NCBI RefSeq assembly: GCF_000337415.1
Contig: NZ_AOJD01000061.1
Span: 1-64,000, forward strand
Direction: 5' to 3'
Source of the DNA: Halorubrum tebenquichense DSM 14210
GTDB taxonomy: Archaea; Halobacteriota; Halobacteria; Halobacteriales; Haloferacaceae
Length of the DNA stretch: 64,000 nt
Every line of letters starts with the position of its first letter. Position 1 is the stretch's first letter. The position numbers were made by a program, and so were the translations under genes. The notes beneath the pieces were generated by a model. It did no database searches, was not told where the DNA came from, and saw only the letters and a list, made by a program, of their open reading frames with translations. Below, piece after piece: positions 30,636-39,306 of this stretch.

Positions 30636-32567
30636 TCAGTCGTCGGCGGGAGCCGCCGAGTCGCCGGCGGAGACCCCGGTTCCGGGCCCGATGTCGATGT
30701 CGAGTTCGGCGAGCTTCTCGTCGGGGACGACCCCGTCGACCCAGTCGCGGGTCTCGTAGTACTCGGCCTTCAGCTGGTCGAGTTCGACGAGTTCGCCCTC
30801 GCTCGCGCCCGTGCCGGGGATGGCGTCCGGGTGCCCCTCGACGAAGCGGTTCGGCAGCGTGTCGTCCGCGCCGTCGAAGCCGACGAGGTTGTTGTAGTAG
30901 CGTTCGAGGTTGTAGACGCGCTCGCCCGCCTCGAACAGCTCGTCCTCGCTGAGGTCGCGACCGGTCACGCCGTTGTACTGGAGCACGTACTCCTCGATCC
31001 CCTCGGCGAACGCGCTGAACTTACAGATGTCGAACGAATCCGAGACGGCGTGGAGGTCCTGGAAGGTGGCGGTGAGTTCGCCCTTCCCCTCCCACTCGTA
31101 CGGATCGACCTTCTCCGGGATGCCGAGGATTTCGGCGGCGGGCGTGTAGCCGCGCAGGTGGCAGGCACCGCGGTTGGAGGTCGCGTACGCGATCCCCATG
31201 CCCTTCATACAGCGCGGGTCGTAGGCGGCCATCGTCTGGCCCTTCACGGAGAGCTTGTTGCCGTGCGCGTCCTTCGCGTCCGCGACGCGCTCGGGGCCCT
31301 CCGCGAGGAGGTCGCCGAGGTCCGACGAGCGGTGACCGATCTCGTCGATGAGGTCGATCATCGTCTCCGAGTCGCCCCAGTCGAGGTGGCCGACGCCGTC
31401 GAGTTTGCCCTCCTCGCTCATCTCCATCGCCATCGCCATCATGTTGCCGGCCTCGATGGTGTCGATGCCGAGGTCGTTACAGCGCTGGAGCATCAGCGCG
31501 ATCTCGTCGCGGTCGGAGTGGCCCGAGTTCGGGCCGAGCGCCCACGCGGACTCGTACTCGTACGACTCCGTGCGGACGTTCATCTCCTGGCCCTTGTGGG
31601 TGACGTTGACCTCGACCTCCTTCTTACACGCGACCGGACAGGAGTGACAGGTCGGCTCGTCGACGAGGATGTTCTCGCGGACGTTCTCGCCGGAGACGCG
31701 CTCCGCCTCCATGTCGACGCCCTCGGTCTCGTTGTACTCCTCCGTCGAGGTGTACTTCGCGTTCTTCGTCGGGAGCCCGTCCATCTCCTCGGTCGCGTTC
31801 ATCAGGACGTTCGTCCCGTACATCGAGAGCCCGCCCTCGTTGGGGGCGGTCACGTCGGACTCGCGGATGACCTCCATCGCCTGCTGGTAGCCCTCTTGGA
31901 ACGTCTCCGGGTCGGCGGGCTTGGGCATGTCCGTGCCCGACTTCACGACGACCGCCTTGACGTTCTTCGCGCCCATCACGGCCCCGGTGCCGCCGCGGCC
32001 CGAGGCGCGGTCGTCCTCGTTGATGACGCAGCCGTACCGGACCTCGTTCTCGCCGCCCTGCCCGATCGCCATCACGGAGACGTCGCGGCCGACCTTGCCG
32101 TCGACCTCCTCGCCGATCTGGTCGATCGTGTCGTGGACGCCCTGTCCCCAGAGGTGCGAGGCGTCGCGTACCTCGACGTCGCCGTCCTCGACGAACAGGT
32201 ACACCGGCTCGTCGCTCTCGCCGTCGAGCAGGATGCCGTCCAGCCCGGCCCACTTGAGCCGCGCGCCGGACCAGCCGCCGTGGTGCGAGTCGGTGACGGT
32301 GCCCGTCAGCGGGGACTTCGTCACCAAGGCGATCCGGCCGCTCATCACGGTCTGGGTGCCCGTCAGCGGGCCGGTCATGAACGCCAGTCGGTTCTCCGGT
32401 CCCAGCGGGTCCACGTCGGGACCCTTGTCGAAGACGTACTTGACGCCGAGCCCGCGCGCGCCGATGTACTTCTCCGCGTCTTCGTCGTCGATCCCGCGGT
32501 AGCTGACGTCGCCACCGGTGAGGTCGACCTGTGCCACACGGTCTCTGTAGCCGCCCATTTCAGTCAT
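30636..32567 (-). CDS. aor: Aldehyde ferredoxin oxidoreductase, tungsten-pterin family
   Basis: Tungsten-bispyranopterin enzyme that oxidises aldehydes to acids with ferredoxin as electron acceptor; 643 aa, cytoplasmic. N-terminal AOR domain: ARGLGVKYVFDKG, FMTGPLTGTQTVMSGR, SPLTGTVTDSHHGG, then GGTGAVMGAKNVKAVVV. The 4Fe-4S cluster ligands are in CHSCPVACKKEV (three Cys) and a later Cys in SDSFDICKFSAF. Other pterin contacts include DLGIDTIEAGNMMAMAMEM. Start at 32567 (MTEMGGYRDRV) is preferred over 32600; MGGYRDRV at 32558 is also possible. It is divergent from the 5'-nucleotidase with a shared control region. The substrate aldehyde is not known. Confidence 0.92.
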   Translation of the reverse strand: MTEMGGYRDRVAQVDLTGGDVSYRGIDDEDAEKYIGARGLGVKYVFDKGPDVDPLGPENRLAFMTGPLTGTQTVMSGRIALVTKSPLTGTVTDSHHGGWSGARLKWAGLDGILLDGESDEPVYLFVEDGDVEVRDASHLWGQGVHDTIDQIGEEVDGKVGRDVSVMAIGQGGENEVRYGCVINEDDRASGRGGTGAVMGAKNVKAVVVKSGTDMPKPADPETFQEGYQQAMEVIRESDVTAPNEGGLSMYGTNVLMNATEEMDGLPTKNAKYTSTEEYNETEGVDMEAERVSGENVRENILVDEPTCHSCPVACKKEVEVNVTHKGQEMNVRTESYEYESAWALGPNSGHSDRDEIALMLQRCNDLGIDTIEAGNMMAMAMEMSEEGKLDGVGHLDWGDSETMIDLIDEIGHRSSDLGDLLAEGPERVADAKDAHGNKLSVKGQTMAAYDPRCMKGMGIAYATSNRGACHLRGYTPAAEILGIPEKVDPYEWEGKGELTATFQDLHAVSDSFDICKFSAFAEGIEEYVLQYNGVTGRDLSEDELFEAGERVYNLERYYNNLVGFDGADDTLPNRFVEGHPDAIPGTGASEGELVELDQLKAEYYETRDWVDGVVPDEKLAELDIDIGPGTGVSAGDSAAPADD

Positions 32568-32800
32568 GTAATTCTCGTTCGTTATGTTTGTACTGCGCAC
32601 GGTTATTCCTTCACACGCCGACGCAACCGCTCTCGGTTACGCGCATCCGTCGTCCCCGGCCGAGGGGAAATCATACCGACTGACAGGTTCGGATCCGTCG
32701 GCCTCGGTCCGGTTCCCCGCGAAGCCGCCACGGTCCGAGCCGATACCGCACGTTCGTGGATATATAGAGCTTGGTACCACCACTTATCCGGCATGTAAAT

Positions 32801-32810
32801 GTTTAATAGC
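32801..32810 (+). promoter_or_regulatory. TATA-like box for the 5'-nucleotidase gene
   Basis: GTTTAATAGC lies 27 bp upstream of the ATG at 32832, the leaderless spacing, and so supports the second in-frame start over the one at 32799. A second TATA-like stretch (GGATATATAG, 32758-32767) sits further upstream in the AOR-nucleotidase divergent region and could serve either direction. Confidence 0.5.
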
Positions 32811-32831
32811 GTCTCTCTGTCTTACGGAACT

Positions 32832-35120
32832 ATGTCGCAAGACACGCGGTCGGAGGAGGTCGTCGATGAGACGCGCCGTCGCCTGCTGGCGGCGGCCGCG
32901 GGCGGGGTAACCGTCGGTGCCCTCGGAACCGGGGCGACGGGCGGCGCGGCGGCGCAGGACGACGGGACGCTCACGCTCGTCCACGACACGCACTTCCACG
33001 GCCGGTTCGAGGACGCGGGCAACGGCGCGATAGACATCGCGCGCTACTACGCCATCGTCGAGGAACTCCGCAGCGAACACCCGAACACCGCCTTCTTCGG
33101 GAACGGGGACGACCTCGCGCCGTCGGTCCTCGGCTTGGAGTTCGAGGGCGAGCACATGGTCGAGGCGTTAAACGAGATGGGACCGGACGCCGTCGGGGCG
33201 GGGAACCACGAGTTCGACTTCGGCGTCGACACCGCGAGCGAGCGGTTCGAGGCCTCCGAGTTCCCGTGGGTGATCGCCAACCTCCTCACCCCGGAGGGGG
33301 AGCCGGTCCCCGGGACGGAGCGGTGGACGACCGTCGATGTCGGCAGCTACACCGTCGGCGTCTTCGGGATGGGCACCACCGGCTTCTACGACATCACGGA
33401 CTACCCCGAGGACTGGCAGGTCCTCGGCTACACGGAGGCCGCCGAGGCCGCCGTCGAGGCGCTCGAACCCGAGACGGACTTCATCGTCTGCGCGTCGCAC
33501 GTCTCCAGCGGCGTCCACGAGACCATCGCGGCGGTCGACGGCGTCGACGCCATCGTCGGGTCGCACTCCAACGTGGTCTACGAGGAGCCGGAGACCATCG
33601 AGGGGACGACCGTCGCCGAGTTCGGCGACGAGTTCGACCACATCGGGCGGCTGACCTTCGACGTCGAGACGGGCGAGCTCTCGGAGTGGGAGCGGGTCGA
33701 CGTCTACGACTCGGAGGCGCTCGGCGAGGACGAGTCGCCGCCGGAGTCGACCGAGAACTACACGCCGCGCGACGTCCGGTCGGTCGAGCGGGACCAGTCG
33801 ATCGCCGAGATCGCCGACGGCTACCTCTCGGACCTCGAAGAGCGGCTCGGCCAGCCCGTCGTCGAGACGGAGGTCGAGCTCAACGCCAGCTTCGACAACT
33901 ACGAGATCGAGACTGGGTGGGGGAACCTGATGACCGACCTGATGCGAGAGGTCGGCAACCTCGACCAGGAGATCGACGTGGCGGTCCAGAACGCCGGCGG
34001 CATCCGGTCGGGATCGACGTACGGGCCCGGCGACCTCACCGGTAGCGACGTGATGAACATCCTGCCGTTCCCGAACGAGATCGTCGTCTACGAGCTGACC
34101 GGCGCGCAGCTCCGGTCGTACCTCCAGCGGTCGGTACGGCCGATGCCCGGCGATTACGGGGCCCAGCCGGCCATTCAGGTGTCCGGCGTCTCCTACGAGT
34201 GGACCGGCCACGACGGGGAGGGACGGGTCCGGAACGTCTGGGTCGGCGGGGAGCCGCTCGACCCCGAGGCGACGTACCTCGTTTCGACGAACGACTTCGT
34301 CGCCGGCCGGAGCGAGGAGTTCGTCGAGGACTCCCGCGTGTTCAACTCGGGGCAGTTCCAGGGGCCGTTCGTCAAGGACACGCTCGACGCCGAGTACGAC
34401 ACGATCGCGCCGGAGCGCGAGGAGCGGATGATCCGCGTCGACGAGGTGGTCGAGGACGCGAGCGTCGAGGCGACCGCGGACGCGCTCACCGTCTCGTTCC
34501 CGCGGACGGACGCGGTCTCGTCGGTCGTCGAGGACACCTACCGGCTCGTGGCACCCGGGCACGGCGTCGTCGAGGCGTCGTCTGTGTCGGGGGGCGAGGA
34601 GGTCGCCGTCGAACTCGCCGCCGACGCGGTCGTCGAGGCGTTCGACGCCACCGGGGCCGACGCGCTGTCGCTGGTCGGCGGGTTCGACCCGAACAGCGAG
34701 CACTACGGCTACGAGAACGAGGACGGCGAACTGGTCGAACTCCCCGTCAACGCGAGCTACGACCACTACGAGCTTCGGACCTCGCTGTCCGGAGAGGACG
34801 TTCGGGCGACCGTCGGCGGCGACGACGGCTCCGACGGCGACGACTCCGACGGGGACGACTCCGACGACGGTTCCGGCGGAGACGGCGGGAGCGACTCGGA
34901 CGGTTCGGACGGCGGCTCCGACGGGTCCGACGGCGACGGTTCGGACGGGGGGAGCGACTCGGGCGGTTCCGACGGTTCGGACGGTGGCGACGGCGAGACC
35001 GCCGACGACACGCCCGGGTTCGGTCCGCTCGCCGGGGCCGCGGGCGTCTCGGGCGCGGCGTACCTCTACGGGAAGTACGGCGCGAGCGACGGGGCCGACG
35101 ACGGCGCGGGCGACGAGTAG
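32832..35120 (+). CDS. Secreted 5'-nucleotidase/phosphoesterase with acidic linker and PGF-CTERM-like tail
   Basis: Extracellular nucleotide hydrolase of 762 aa. A Tat-type signal (RRRLLAAAAGGVTVGALG) is followed by the metallophosphoesterase domain: LVHDTHFHGRF, FFGNGDDLAP, GAGNHEFDFG, CASHVSSGVHE and VGSHSNVVYEE supply the usual metal ligands. A 5'-nucleotidase C-terminal domain follows (AVQNAGGIRSG, ILPFPNEIVVYELTGAQLR). The C-terminus holds a Ser/Asp/Gly linker of about 70 residues, then PGFGPLAGAAGVSGAAYLYG (from residue 728). That resembles the PGF-CTERM anchor but lacks a clear Arg-rich end and carries an acidic tail. It likely degrades extracellular nucleotides for phosphate or nucleoside uptake. 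Confidence 0.87.
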   Translation: MSQDTRSEEVVDETRRRLLAAAAGGVTVGALGTGATGGAAAQDDGTLTLVHDTHFHGRFEDAGNGAIDIARYYAIVEELRSEHPNTAFFGNGDDLAPSVLGLEFEGEHMVEALNEMGPDAVGAGNHEFDFGVDTASERFEASEFPWVIANLLTPEGEPVPGTERWTTVDVGSYTVGVFGMGTTGFYDITDYPEDWQVLGYTEAAEAAVEALEPETDFIVCASHVSSGVHETIAAVDGVDAIVGSHSNVVYEEPETIEGTTVAEFGDEFDHIGRLTFDVETGELSEWERVDVYDSEALGEDESPPESTENYTPRDVRSVERDQSIAEIADGYLSDLEERLGQPVVETEVELNASFDNYEIETGWGNLMTDLMREVGNLDQEIDVAVQNAGGIRSGSTYGPGDLTGSDVMNILPFPNEIVVYELTGAQLRSYLQRSVRPMPGDYGAQPAIQVSGVSYEWTGHDGEGRVRNVWVGGEPLDPEATYLVSTNDFVAGRSEEFVEDSRVFNSGQFQGPFVKDTLDAEYDTIAPEREERMIRVDEVVEDASVEATADALTVSFPRTDAVSSVVEDTYRLVAPGHGVVEASSVSGGEEVAVELAADAVVEAFDATGADALSLVGGFDPNSEHYGYENEDGELVELPVNASYDHYELRTSLSGEDVRATVGGDDGSDGDDSDGDDSDDGSGGDGGSDSDGSDGGSDGSDGDGSDGGSDSGGSDGSDGGDGETADDTPGFGPLAGAAGVSGAAYLYGKYGASDGADDGAGDE

Positions 35121-35210: not shown

Positions 35211-36536
35211 ATGGAACTCCCGGATCCGGACTCGGTCCCGCGGCGCGAGTTCGCGAAGGCCGCCGTCGCGCTCGGCGGCGTCGCGGGCTTGAGCGCCTGC
35301 CTCGGCAGCGACGGCGACGCCGGCGGGGGCGGGAACGGGGACGCGGTCGGCGGCGGCCCGCTCGACGGCGTGCCCGCCGGCGACCCCGGCGAGGCCCCGG
35401 AGCGCCAGCACGCGTGGGACGACGCGCTCGACCGCGACGACGCGGGCAACGTCGTCCCGCCGACCCACCACGTGCTCCGGTACGTCGACGTCGACCGCGG
35501 CGACGCCCCCCGGGCCGACGCCCGGGAGCGGATTGAGGCGGCCTTCACTGACCTCGAACGCGCGTTCGAGCGCTCGGCCGCCGGGCTGCTGTTCACCGTG
35601 GGCTACTCGCCCGCCTACTTCGACCGGCTGCCGGGAACGCTCCCGGAGTCGGTCGATCTCCCGGCCCCGCGACCGCTGACCGGGCTGGAGGACCCGTCGA
35701 TCGACGAGGCGGACGCGCTCGTCCACTTGGCCGCAGACGAGCCGGCGGCGGTCCTCGCGGCCGACGAGGCGCTGTTCGGCGAGGCGACCGCCGCCAACGG
35801 CGTCCCGATGACGGACGCGAGCGACCTGTTCGACCCCGTCGACCGGCGGACCGGATTCATCGGCGCGGGGCTCCCGCGAGAGCACCGCGACGTCGACGGG
35901 ATCCCGGACGACGCGCCGGTCCCGGAGGGAGCGAAGCTGTTCATGGGGTTCGCGAACGGCTTCGCGGCGTCGCAGGCGACCGAGGATCGGGTGACGATCG
36001 AGGCCGGACCGTTCGCCGGCGGGACGACCCAGCAGGTCTCGACGCTGCGGACGCAGCTCGACGCCTGGTGGTCACAGGAGAGCCACGCCCAGCGCGTGGC
36101 GAAGCTCTTCAGCCCGACTCACGCCGACGAGGAGCGCGTCGGCGAGTACGGCGAGCGGCTCGGGAGCGACCCGGGCGTCGCGGACCTCCCGGAAGACGCG
36201 GTCGCGTACGCCCGCGAGGAGGGCGTCGTCGGGCACGCACAGAAGGCGGCACGCGCCCGCGAGGACGGAAAACCGCGGCTACTCAGGCGCGACTTCCCGA
36301 CGACCGACGGCGACCACACGGGGATCCACTTCCTCACGCTCCAGGAGTCGATCGGCGACTTCGTCGCCGTCCGCGACGCGATGACGGGGGCGGACGTCGC
36401 GGACGAGACGGGGGTGGGGAGCCGGATCAACAACGGGATCCTCCAGTACGTGTTCGTCCGGAGCCGCGGGAACTTCCTCGTGCCGCCCCGCGGCCTGCGC
36501 GCGCTCCCCGACCCGGACCCGCGGAGCGAGCCGTGA
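35211..36536 (+). CDS. DyP-type peroxidase/EfeB-like lipoprotein with altered GXXDG motif
   Basis: Tat lipoprotein of 441 aa (twin Arg 11-12, lipobox Cys30). The layout follows DyP/EfeB proteins: TVGYSPAYFDRLPGTLP early, then GFANGFAASQATEDRV where DyPs have a GXXDG motif, GGTTQQVSTLRTQLDAW, the proximal-His candidate H342 (VVGHAQKAARAR), RLLRRDFPTTDGDHTGIHFL and GNFLVPPRGLRALP at the end. The catalytic Asp of GXXDG is Asn249 here (GFANG), so classical peroxidase activity is doubtful. It is the first gene of a run with a P19-like iron protein, comparable to EfeB in bacterial iron uptake. The haem role is inferred from fold-level similarity. Confidence 0.68.
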   Translation: MELPDPDSVPRREFAKAAVALGGVAGLSACLGSDGDAGGGGNGDAVGGGPLDGVPAGDPGEAPERQHAWDDALDRDDAGNVVPPTHHVLRYVDVDRGDAPRADARERIEAAFTDLERAFERSAAGLLFTVGYSPAYFDRLPGTLPESVDLPAPRPLTGLEDPSIDEADALVHLAADEPAAVLAADEALFGEATAANGVPMTDASDLFDPVDRRTGFIGAGLPREHRDVDGIPDDAPVPEGAKLFMGFANGFAASQATEDRVTIEAGPFAGGTTQQVSTLRTQLDAWWSQESHAQRVAKLFSPTHADEERVGEYGERLGSDPGVADLPEDAVAYAREEGVVGHAQKAARAREDGKPRLLRRDFPTTDGDHTGIHFLTLQESIGDFVAVRDAMTGADVADETGVGSRINNGILQYVFVRSRGNFLVPPRGLRALPDPDPRSEP

Positions 36537-36632
36537 CGCGGCGGGGCCGACTCGGGGAGCGGGTTCGGGACCGCAGCCGGACCGACGCGGAGCGGGTCCG
36601 ATGACGCGTTCGGAGCGACGGAGACACGACAG

Positions 36633-38009
36633 ATGACACGCGACACGACACCGACAGACGGGACCGGACCGCAGCGACCGCACAGCCGCCGCCGCGTGCT
36701 CGCCCTCGGCGCGACCGTCGGAGCGGGCGCGCTCGGCGGGTGTTTAACCAACTCCGGGGACGGCAACGCCGGCGGCGGGTCGACGGGCGGGGCCGACAGC
36801 GGCGGGGACGAAGCGACGAACGGGAGCGGGGACGACGCGGGGGACGATGGCGGTGACGGCGGGTCCCCGTCGCTGCCCCGGGTCGAGGACCCGCCGGCGG
36901 CGACGTACGTCCCGACGCACTTCGAGGCGATGCGGCGGTTGGAGCTCGTCGAGGCGGGCGACTACCTCCTCGAACCGATGCTCACGTACCCGCACCGGTT
37001 CTGGAACGTGACCGGCGACCGGGTCGAGGCGGCGGCCCCGACCGACGACCACGACGTCCACCTGATGGTGACGGTCCGCGACGCCGAGACCGGGCGCGTC
37101 CTCCCGGCGGAGACCGGACTGCGAGTGACCGTCGGCCGCGAGGGCGAGTCCGGGACGCCCCACACCCCGTGGCCGATGGTCTCGCAGGAGATGGGGTTCC
37201 ACTTCGGCGACAACATTTCGCTCGGCGGCGACGGCACCTACGAGGCGACGGTCCGGGTGGGAGCCGTCGACGCCCGGAAGACCGGGTCGTTCGCCGGGCG
37301 GTTCGCGGAGCCGGCGACCGGGACGTTCACCTTCGAGTACGATCGGGCGTTCCGCGAGTCGGTGATCGGCGACATCGTGTACGTCCGAGAGGAGTCGGAC
37401 TGGGGCGTCCGCGGCGCGATGGCGAACGGCTCGCTCGGGCGCGGCGGCGGGCGGAGCTACGGCGACGCCGACCGCGAGGGGCCGAACTTCGTCGACGCGC
37501 AGCGACAGGACGTCGACCGCGACCACCGCGGCGAGCCGCGCTGGGAGGCGCGCGTCGACGACCGGCGGTACGGGACCTACTGGCGCGGTCCCGCGGAGGG
37601 CGAACTGCCGCCCGCGGCGCACCTCCCCGGGCGACTCTTGGGCGAACCGGTCGTCGGGGACGCGCTGCTCGCGACTGCCCTACTCCCCGGCGGGTCGCGG
37701 TTCGTCGAGGGCGACGAGCGCTACCTCCTCGTCTCGCCGCGGACGCCGTACAACCGCTCGATGCTCCCGATGGCCGCGCTCGACTACGCCGTGCGCCGCG
37801 ACGGGAGCGCCGTCGCGTCGGGGGCGCTCGACGCCGCGCTCGACGACGCGGTCGGCTACCACTACGGGACCGCGCTCGACGACGTCGAGTCGGGCGACGA
37901 ACTGGCGCTCTCGGTGGCGACCGCCCCGAACGTCTCGCGGCACGCGGGCTACGAGACGGCGCTGTTGGAGACGGGTGGGGTCACGCTGACCGCGGAGGTG
38001 CCGGAATGA
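36633..38009 (+). CDS. Tat lipoprotein with P19/FtrA-like iron-binding domain
   Basis: Secreted lipoprotein of 458 aa: twin-Arg signal (HSRRRVLALGATVGAGALGGC, Cys37), then a Gly/Ser/Asp linker. The N-terminal domain resembles the periplasmic iron protein P19/Tp34 family: TYPHRFWNVTGDRVE, DDHDVHLMVTVRDAETGRVL, then WPMVSQEMGFHFGDNISLGG and GTYEATVRVGAVDARKTGSF. The C-terminal half (from about residue 240) contains VGDALLATALLPGGSRFVEG and two more beta-rich repeats of the same style, perhaps a duplicated domain. It follows the DyP/EfeB-like gene by about 100 bp and overlaps the next gene by 4 bp (ATGA). Ferrous iron handling is inferred. Confidence 0.68.
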   Translation: MTRDTTPTDGTGPQRPHSRRRVLALGATVGAGALGGCLTNSGDGNAGGGSTGGADSGGDEATNGSGDDAGDDGGDGGSPSLPRVEDPPAATYVPTHFEAMRRLELVEAGDYLLEPMLTYPHRFWNVTGDRVEAAAPTDDHDVHLMVTVRDAETGRVLPAETGLRVTVGREGESGTPHTPWPMVSQEMGFHFGDNISLGGDGTYEATVRVGAVDARKTGSFAGRFAEPATGTFTFEYDRAFRESVIGDIVYVREESDWGVRGAMANGSLGRGGGRSYGDADREGPNFVDAQRQDVDRDHRGEPRWEARVDDRRYGTYWRGPAEGELPPAAHLPGRLLGEPVVGDALLATALLPGGSRFVEGDERYLLVSPRTPYNRSMLPMAALDYAVRRDGSAVASGALDAALDDAVGYHYGTALDDVESGDELALSVATAPNVSRHAGYETALLETGGVTLTAEVPE

Positions 38010-38833
38010 GACCGGGCCGGCGGGGCGGCCTGGCCGCGCTCGCCGTCATCGTCGGAGTCGCGCTGCTCGTCGGTGCGGCCGGTGCGCTGGCCGCCCCGGC
38101 GAGCGCCGGTGACACCGCGGGCGCGCTCTCGGTGTCGCCGGAGTCGTTCGACGTCGAGCCCGGCGACACCGTCACCTTCGAGGTGGCGATGGTCAACGAC
38201 GGGGAGCGCGACGACGACGGGGTGTACGGGCTCACGCTCCGGCTCGACTACCCGAGCGAGTACCTGACGGTCACGAAGATCGAGTCGGCGGGCTGGTTCC
38301 GGGAGGCCCCCTCGGGCGACGACCGGTCGCAGTCGGACGCCGAGGTGTCGGAGTCGGTCGAGTACGACGACGAACGCGGGGCCGCGCGGCTGGTCCAGTC
38401 GCTCGACGACCCGACGACGGGCGTCACCGGCGAGGCGGCGGTCGCGACCGTCACCGTCCGCGTGGAGCCGGACGCGGAGCCGGCGGTCGCGGAGGTCGGG
38501 ACCCGCGAGACGAGCACGGACCTCACCAGCCGGCGCGACTACCCGCAGCCGCTGTCGACCCCCTCCGTGACGTTCAACGTCTCCGGCGGCGGCGACGGCG
38601 GGGTCGTCACGCCGGCCTACGACGACGCGGCGTTCTCGGACGCCGGCGACGGGAAGACCGGCGACGGGAAGACCGGCGACGGGAACACGAGCGACACCGC
38701 AGACCCGAACGAGAGCGGGGAAACGAACGCGAGCGACGAGGTCGAGGGTTCAACCGGCGACGAGGCCCCGACACCGGTCGGCGCGGCGGTCCTCGGCGTC
38801 CTCGCGGCCGCACTCCTCCTCGGCAGACGGTGA
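38006..38833 (+). CDS. Secreted cohesin-domain-like protein with C-terminal membrane anchor
   Basis: Protein of 275 aa with an N-terminal signal (GLAALAVIVGVALLVGAAGALA). A cohesin-like beta sandwich follows (SPESFDVEPGDTVTFEVAMV, YGLTLRLDYPSEYLTVTKIE, VTGEAAVATVTVRVEPD). A linker with the tandem GDGKTGDGKTGDGNT leads to a C-terminal hydrophobic helix (PTPVGAAVLGVLAAALLLGRR) that may be an archaeosortase-like or plain anchor. It overlaps both neighbours (ATGA with the P19-like gene, GTGA with the VanZ-like gene), so expression is coupled. Cohesin domains bind dockerins or other surface proteins; the partner here is unknown. Confidence 0.65.
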   Translation: MRPGRRGGLAALAVIVGVALLVGAAGALAAPASAGDTAGALSVSPESFDVEPGDTVTFEVAMVNDGERDDDGVYGLTLRLDYPSEYLTVTKIESAGWFREAPSGDDRSQSDAEVSESVEYDDERGAARLVQSLDDPTTGVTGEAAVATVTVRVEPDAEPAVAEVGTRETSTDLTSRRDYPQPLSTPSVTFNVSGGGDGGVVTPAYDDAAFSDAGDGKTGDGKTGDGNTSDTADPNESGETNASDEVEGSTGDEAPTPVGAAVLGVLAAALLLGRR

Positions 38834-39306
38834 GCAGCGCCGACGCGGGTCGCTCGGCGGACAGGTGGGGCGGCGCGTGGCGGCCGTTCCTCGCGGGGAC
38901 GGCGGTGGTCCTCGTCGCGTCGGTGCTCCCGGTTCCGGACGCGCTCGTCGGCCCCGGTGGCGGTGTTGGCGGCGGGGGCGCGCCGGTCGGCCCCCTCGCG
39001 GCCCTCGGTCCGACCGCCGCGTTCCACCTGATCGGCTACGCCGCGCTGGCCGCGCTGGCGACGCGAGCGACCGGGTTCGGGCGCGGAGACGCCCGCGAGG
39101 ACGGACTTCCGGAGACGGGGGCTGTCGGGGGCGCGGCGCGGGCGGCGAGCGCGTCGACCGCGGTCGGCTTCTGTGTGGAACTGCTCCAAGCGCCGCTGGC
39201 GTGGCGGTCGTTCGCGTGGGTCGACGCCGGGGTCAACGCGGTCGGCGCGGTCGTCGGCGTCATGGTCGTGGCGGCGGTCGCCGTCCTGCGGCGAGCAGCC
39301 GGCTGA
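38830..39306 (+). CDS. VanZ-like membrane protein
   Basis: Integral membrane protein of 158 aa with about four hydrophobic segments: near residues 18-38, 52-76, 88-110 and 128-152. The phrase HLIGYAALAALATRATGF and the helix following SFAWVDAGVNAVGAVVGV recall the VanZ family, whose exact function is unknown. GTG at 38830 overlaps the previous stop (GTGA). Last gene of the four-gene run that starts with the DyP/EfeB-like lipoprotein. Confidence 0.68.
   Translation: MSSADAGRSADRWGGAWRPFLAGTAVVLVASVLPVPDALVGPGGGVGGGGAPVGPLAALGPTAAFHLIGYAALAALATRATGFGRGDAREDGLPETGAVGGAARAASASTAVGFCVELLQAPLAWRSFAWVDAGVNAVGAVVGVMVVAAVAVLRRAAG

Follow-up and report, generated by a model that had tools for sequence, protein, structure and literature searches.

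A near-inseparable pair of DyP-like and P19-like proteins in Halobacteria, tentatively read as a surface haem/copper couple

The locus described here lies at positions 35211-39306 of a 64,000-nucleotide window, the whole stretch of DNA analysed, from Halorubrum tebenquichense DSM 14210 (contig C61, part of a 3.3 Mb genome). Its first two genes encode a member of the Pfam family DUF7405 and a protein that joins a P19-like domain to a DUF7350 domain, and we found that these two proteins are near-inseparable, often adjacent partners in Halobacteria. The reading we favour, tentatively and short of even odds, is that they form a surface haem/copper redox couple, which we consider more likely than iron uptake. 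An original prediction made from the sequence of this locus had described an iron-handling surface operon with an atypical DyP/EfeB-like protein. Its DyP/EfeB-, P19- and cohesin-like identities, its lipoprotein signals and its Asn in place of the DyP distal Asp were borne out; the treatment of that Asn249 as a peculiarity, the iron role and the inclusion of a VanZ-like gene were not.

Pairing of DUF7405 and DUF7350 across Halobacteria

The two genes of the pair, separated by 96 bp, are the following.

35211-36536, + strand: DUF7405 protein, DyP-like, 441 amino acids; Pfam PF24152 at E 2e-150; twin-arginine translocation (Tat) signal and lipobox; domain at 35460-36488
36633-38009, + strand: P19-fold and DUF7350 protein, 458 amino acids; P19 part modelled over 36885-37370; DUF7350 at 37620-37991; Tat signal and lipobox

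The locus is not a chance occurrence, since DUF7405 was present in 261 of 292 Halobacteria genomes. In a sample of the phylum it was found in 18 of 148 genomes and all 18, among the matches listed, came from the window's order. Main and divergent forms of DUF7405 were split at 440 bits, a line placed, once the scores were known, in the empty interval from 470 down to 406 bits, or, for the 292-genome count, by a best E under or over 1e-130. DUF7350 was carried by 252 of the 255 genomes with main-form DUF7405, compared to 2 of the 37 without it, so that 252 genomes held both, 3 main-form DUF7405 only, 2 DUF7350 only and 35 neither. Among 79 genomes, 66 held both, 13 neither and none one alone, and among the 213 genomes that were not used to form the pairing idea the corresponding counts were 186 both, 3 and 2 with a single member, and 22 neither. 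The presence or absence of the pair also co-varied inside the window's own genus. The five genomes of the 292 in which the pairing was broken were G097, G181, G226, G197 and G235. Both families were also matched in a control genome, that of the laboratory strain Haloferax volcanii.

Physical linkage was scored for 95 DUF7405 matches, a second, 31.8-bit fragment in G030 being left out. Main-form DUF7405 lay within 3 kb of DUF7350 in 57 of 77 cases, with DUF7350 downstream on the same strand in 41, compared to 0 of 18 for divergent DUF7405. The window genome itself holds a second pair, on contig C77, that is 49 and 37% identical and falls on another branch of the tree. The closest relatives of the window's DUF7405 protein in named genomes were from Halorubrum trapanicum and a Halobacteriales metagenome genome (86% identity), no relative was found in the viral contigs searched, and an NCBIfam scan of the four proteins gave no match.

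Both proteins carry a Tat RR motif and a lipobox Cys, in agreement with the earlier lipoprotein claim, and these signals are conserved across relatives. Among 74 DUF7405 proteins of at least 400 amino acids (from fetched loci, identical ones counted once, row L048 dropped), RR stood at residues 11-12 in all 74 and lipobox Cys30 was found in 73; among 69 P19-DUF7350 proteins of at least 300 amino acids, RR was present in all 69 and lipobox Cys37 in 68. Judged by these signals, both proteins would be exported folded by Tat and held by lipid outside the membrane.

In Pfam the two families carry no function; the pairing and the kinships described below were worked out here, and no description of DUF7405, DUF7350 or their pairing was found in the open-access literature searched. 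If the reading is right, two large families without a function, present in almost nine-tenths of the sampled Halobacteria genomes, would acquire a shared identity together with a prediction at the level of individual sites.

DyP kinship and active-site residues of DUF7405

On profile-profile comparison the first gene belongs with the DyP superfamily. An hhalign comparison of 45 DUF7405 proteins with 12 DyPs gave a probability of 98.7 (E 3.8e-16, 248 columns), in line with the predicted likeness to EfeB-type DyPs, while two control comparisons with the P19 alignment paired only the Tat signal. The Pfam model Dyp_perox_C was matched by 19 of the 45 members (best E 4.4e-6) and Dyp_perox_N by one (E 7.4e-4). 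When the profile of the 45 was searched against PDB sequences, solved DyP-type peroxidases ranked at the top, but at E 0.02 and above, and 16 of the 21 sequences at E <=10 were named DyP-type peroxidase or deferrochelatase; in this HMMER comparison the similarity was concentrated on a His-Arg stretch. The idea of a classical DyP acting elsewhere in the window genome was rejected, since no Dyp_perox_N match was found there. Like EfeB and other class I (type A) DyPs, DUF7405 shows profile similarity over most of its domain, a Tat signal, and the proximal His and distal Arg positions, and, as with EfeB, its partner is a metal-binding protein. Unlike EfeB, it lacks the distal Asp, has a lipobox Cys and no EfeU/FTR1 partner, was found here only in Halobacteria, and its kinship falls under the limit of single-sequence detection.

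The residues in question are located as follows.

35946-35960, + strand: GFANG, codons 246-250, with Asn249 (35955-35957) in place of the DyP distal Asp
36234-36290, + strand: His342 (36234-36236), candidate proximal haem ligand, to Arg359-Arg360 (36285-36290); Arg359 corresponds to EfeB Arg347

In the hhalign comparison Asn249 was paired with Asp235, the distal Asp of E. coli EfeB, which confirms the placement that had been proposed for it in GFANG. It is not special to the window gene: position 249 was Ala in 32, Ser in 31, Asn in 7 and Thr, Gly, Val or Asp in 1 each of the 74 proteins, and the Asn was confined to near relatives of the window copy and the copy in L069. Since the distal Asp is missing from 73 of the 74, its loss is a family trait, which rules out Asn249 as the mark of a special enzyme, and the N249D change suggested earlier as a reversion would have no local Asp to restore. 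The sole copy with Asp at this position is a divergent DUF7405 in a 727-amino-acid open frame at L101:3916-6099. The active sites of DyPs almost exclusively comprise His, Arg and Asp, the last being replaced by Glu in a few cases, according to an excerpt of PMC7611857, and this makes a whole family without the distal Asp unusual. If the reading is right, DUF7405 would be a natural DyP family lacking a residue that has so far been studied mainly by mutation.

The loss of Asp does not by itself imply a non-peroxidase, because the D143A variant of a Klebsiella DyP is described, in the portion of PMC6153280 used here, as forming Compound I about 1000-fold more slowly and not as having lost it, with faster formation at higher pH. 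Five residues, His342, Arg359, Arg360, Phe374 and Glu258, were invariant in 74 of 74 DUF7405 proteins, and His342 and the PPRGL end were present as described in the original prediction. His342 was lined up on the DyP His by an ungapped HMMER alignment of the His-Arg stretch to solved DyPs; hhalign, by contrast, opened a gap directly after it. On this conservation and alignment, DUF7405 may hold haem through His342, with Arg359 as the sole classical distal residue.

Two alternatives bear on these residues. First, DUF7405 could be a surface haem enzyme that acts on peroxide or oxyanions with its distal Arg alone, in the style of chlorite dismutases, the P19 protein serving as electron donor or protector. 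The retention of Arg359 and His342 in all 74 proteins despite the loss of Asp would suit such an enzyme, as would the function of chlorite dismutases with a distal Arg (PMC7611857, in part) and the residual, pH-dependent chemistry of D143A, but no recurrent oxyanion or peroxide genes were found near the main form, though divergent copies adjoin parts of molybdenum enzymes, and we regard this alternative as improbable. Second, DUF7405 could be a degenerate DyP that no longer holds haem and partners the P19 protein at the surface, structurally or by binding. The family-wide loss of Asp and the restriction of most of the similarity to the His-Arg stretch would be expected of such a protein, but a merely structural role does not demand the invariance of His342, Arg359, Arg360 and Phe374, and we give this the least weight of all.

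P19 fold and metal site of the partner protein

The second gene matched DUF7350 (E 3.8e-48) and, just over the cut-off, Iron_transport/P19 (E 3.2e-4, 21.4 bits against a cut-off of 21.0), and its family aligned to bacterial P19 with an hhalign probability of 96.1. An AlphaFold2 model of the P19 part, built from four sequences, had a predicted local distance difference test score (pLDDT) of 76.5 and a predicted template modelling score (pTM) of 0.73. The 32 Foldseek matches of this model at E <=0.001 were P19, FetP, FtrA, related treponemal proteins and one designed cage. With VIA-align 2 it was superposed on FetP over 122 residues (Z 13.3, root-mean-square deviation 3.5) and on the Helicobacter copper-resistance protein CrdA over 101 residues (Z 11.0, root-mean-square deviation 2.8). 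The predicted P19/FtrA-like identity is upheld by the Pfam match, the profile alignment and the model (Z ~13 to FetP/FtrA/P19).

The candidate metal site maps to two short segments.

37059-37067, + strand: His143-x-Met145; in bacterial P19 this is His-x-Glu (Glu44 of C. jejuni P19)
37176-37202, + strand: Met182 ... Met187-x-x-His190, the rest of the candidate copper site; each residue in 69 of 69

His143, Met145, Met182, Met187 and His190 were invariant in all 69 P19-DUF7350 proteins. Three of them, His143, Met182 and His190, aligned in the same order to a His, a Met and a His of bacterial P19, which we take to be its copper ligands, in part from the PDB titles of variants. A site of Met and His suits copper. 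The acidic patch of P19 is not kept: the place of Glu44, which is Glu in 5 of 5 bacterial P19s, was Met145 in 69 of 69, a pairing given by two alignment methods, and the place of Asp46 (residue 147) was never acidic in the 69. The place of Asp92 depended on the aligner and was either the variable residue 186 (Glu in 13 of 69) or Met187. In Campylobacter P19 a metal regarded as an iron analogue is bound by Glu3, Glu44, Asp46 and Asp92, and the patch that includes the last three is the likely iron site (PMC9174327, in the portion available). We infer that the site of the P19-DUF7350 proteins is of a copper type rather than an iron type. Its P19 domain would bind copper via His143, Met145, Met182 and His190, perhaps with Met187, as conservation and the P19 fold suggest.

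The family resembles P19, FtrA and FetP in fold and in the order of its His, Met and His ligands and differs from them in its Met for Glu44 throughout, its extra Met187, the absence of the His of the bacterial GRH motif from the corresponding place, its lipobox, its C-terminal DUF7350 domain and the lack of an FTR1 partner. Within the DUF7350 domain (37620-37991), His410-Tyr411 and Arg436-His437-x-Gly-Tyr were near-invariant and possibly form a second site.

Gene neighbourhoods and candidate roles

Copper genes recur near DUF7350. The copper chaperone family SCO1 was found within 5 kb of 12 of 106 DUF7350 genes, compared to 0.36 expected by uniform placement. This count used 106 strong DUF7350 matches and 91 SCO1 matches and left out weak second-half DUF7350 matches and weaker SCO1 matches (E >=4.6e-7), one of which is some 2.4 kb away from DUF7350 in G014. 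Around 20 DUF7350 loci away from DUF7405, SCO1 was the commonest Pfam family (5 of 76 proteins); of the 76 scanned, 71 were chosen by position and 5 were added by hand (three beside SCO1 and two ATPases), which biases the ATPase count. A gene with a heavy-metal domain lay within 5 kb in 4 of 49 cases among the matches listed, compared to 0.48 expected, and one of the four is an ATPase that adjoins the pair in L082.

A Streptomyces system offers the closest precedent for a copper role. DtpA is a Tat-exported DyP encoded in a sco-ecuc-dtpA operon, tied genetically to an extracellular copper chaperone, and its mutants are rescued by copper, as set out in part of PMC4736821. It differs from the haloarchaeal pair in that DtpA acts as a peroxidase and its system has no P19 protein, and the haloarchaeal SCO1 link is partial. 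By analogy, the putative haem and copper proteins of the pair might exchange electrons, for example in the oxidation of Cu(I) at the expense of peroxide, and the role of the couple could be to handle copper outside the cell or deliver it to SCO1-type chaperones and copper enzymes. Overall, haem, copper, electron exchange and surface docking are all parts that we infer. The broader proposal, that this is a permease-less extracellular couple, near-obligatory in Halobacteria, in which DyP and P19 parts that once served iron uptake were re-tooled for copper trafficking or for peroxide chemistry coupled to copper, is possible but more doubtful than the couple as such. If true, it would place DyP and P19 parts in joint use without an FTR1 permease. 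To our knowledge, little has been established about how haloarchaea supply copper to halocyanins, terminal oxidases and other surface enzymes. The copper genes of Haloferax mediterranei have been surveyed across its genome, and the main text of that survey does not mention P19 or DyP, as far as the portion available goes (PMC9240420).

Iron handling, in which the P19-like protein would capture iron and the DyP-like protein oxidise it for an importer other than FTR1, is the strongest alternative, though an unlikely one. P19 and EfeB are parts of iron-uptake systems in bacteria, and in Vibrio campbellii genes for P19, an FTR1-like, an EfeO/M75-like and an EfeB-type DyP protein form one run (L136:4743-8702), of which P19 and EfeB were placed by searches and the other names were read from translations. 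A copper-type site is also compatible with an iron role, as iron transport by bacterial P19 reportedly depends on a copper site, going by the title of Chan et al. 2020. However, the FTR1/EfeU permease was found in 0 of 79 Halobacteria genomes by a search that was positive in 4 of 14 control genomes, and no iron transporter was among the 25 commonest neighbour families listed. Together with the Met at the iron-site Glu and the absence of an acidic residue at the Asp46 place, and with DUF7350 neighbours that lean to copper genes, this tells against the iron role of the original prediction, and we prefer the copper reading to it.

Several observations weigh against a haem/copper couple. First, searched singly, the gene 1 protein gave no DyP match even at E <=10, and its AlphaFold2 model, from only six sequences, reached a pLDDT of 36.9 and was not usable as a model of the DyP fold. 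Second, the conserved Met and His residues might instead bind another soft metal or be structural. Third, the copper neighbourhood is uneven: of the 12 SCO1-linked DUF7350 loci, four (G021, G040, G076 and G078) also hold DUF7405 and eight do not; SCO1 presence does not track DUF7405 genome by genome (51/15 vs 10/3); heavy-metal-domain genes are not all copper genes; and the pair in the window has no copper gene next to it, and its neighbours encode a 5'-nucleotidase, an aldehyde ferredoxin oxidoreductase and a radical SAM protein. Lastly, the expectations of 0.36 and 0.48 from uniform placement are crude, and the genomes are related, so the pairing counts and Fisher tests make the cases look more independent than they are.

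The remaining two genes complete the locus; the coordinates of all four and the 4-bp overlaps at the last two junctions (ATGA at 38006 between genes 2 and 3, GTGA at 38830 between genes 3 and 4) were as originally predicted.

38006-38833, + strand: cohesin-like secreted protein, 275 amino acids, with a hydrophobic C-terminal tail; third gene of a conserved triad
38830-39306, + strand: small membrane protein, weakly VanZ-like, with a VanZ match under the cut-off

The third protein had no Pfam match of its own. Its counterparts elsewhere matched Cohesin (PF00963) in 6 of 96 neighbours scanned (best E 3.6e-11; best 3e-9 in single scans), which is in line with the proposed cohesin-like identity; the 96 were thinned by hand from 161 listed neighbours of DUF7405. 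Cohesin was the most frequent family around DUF7405, followed by FG-GAP, enoyl-CoA hydratase, UnbV_ASPIC and nitrate-reductase delta. Clusters of DUF7405, P19 and cohesin-like genes occurred together in at least 13 of 46 loci. These loci all belong to the same part of the tree as the window, except that L075 sits at the base of that part, where support is poor. Going by gene order, docking of the pair to the surface in the window's clade may be the task of the cohesin-like protein. Gene calls in the 46 loci came from a codon-use script. In L073, L081, L084, L085 and L090 it failed to recover DUF7405 itself among the clustered genes, so that the locus counts are lower bounds. The fourth gene scored 22.9 bits for VanZ, below the cut-off of 30.1 (nearest relative 26.8). 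Since a VanZ-like gene was present in only 3 of the 46 loci (at least 3), the idea that all four genes form one system was rejected, and this gene is probably a local addition outside the system.

Upstream of the locus, at 30636-35120, the window holds aldehyde ferredoxin oxidoreductase and 5'-nucleotidase genes that recur beside near relatives, and three divergent DUF7405 copies (L096-L098) likewise have a homologue of the oxidoreductase nearby. These three and the divergent copy in L102 adjoin a molybdenum-type oxidoreductase, so named from a reading of its sequence, a FlpD/ferredoxin-domain protein and a NarJ/TorD-like chaperone, a setting that suggests a respiratory or maturation role for the same fold. 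Another divergent branch of DUF7405 (L095, L099, L100 and L103) is found next to FG-GAP/UnbV_ASPIC proteins.

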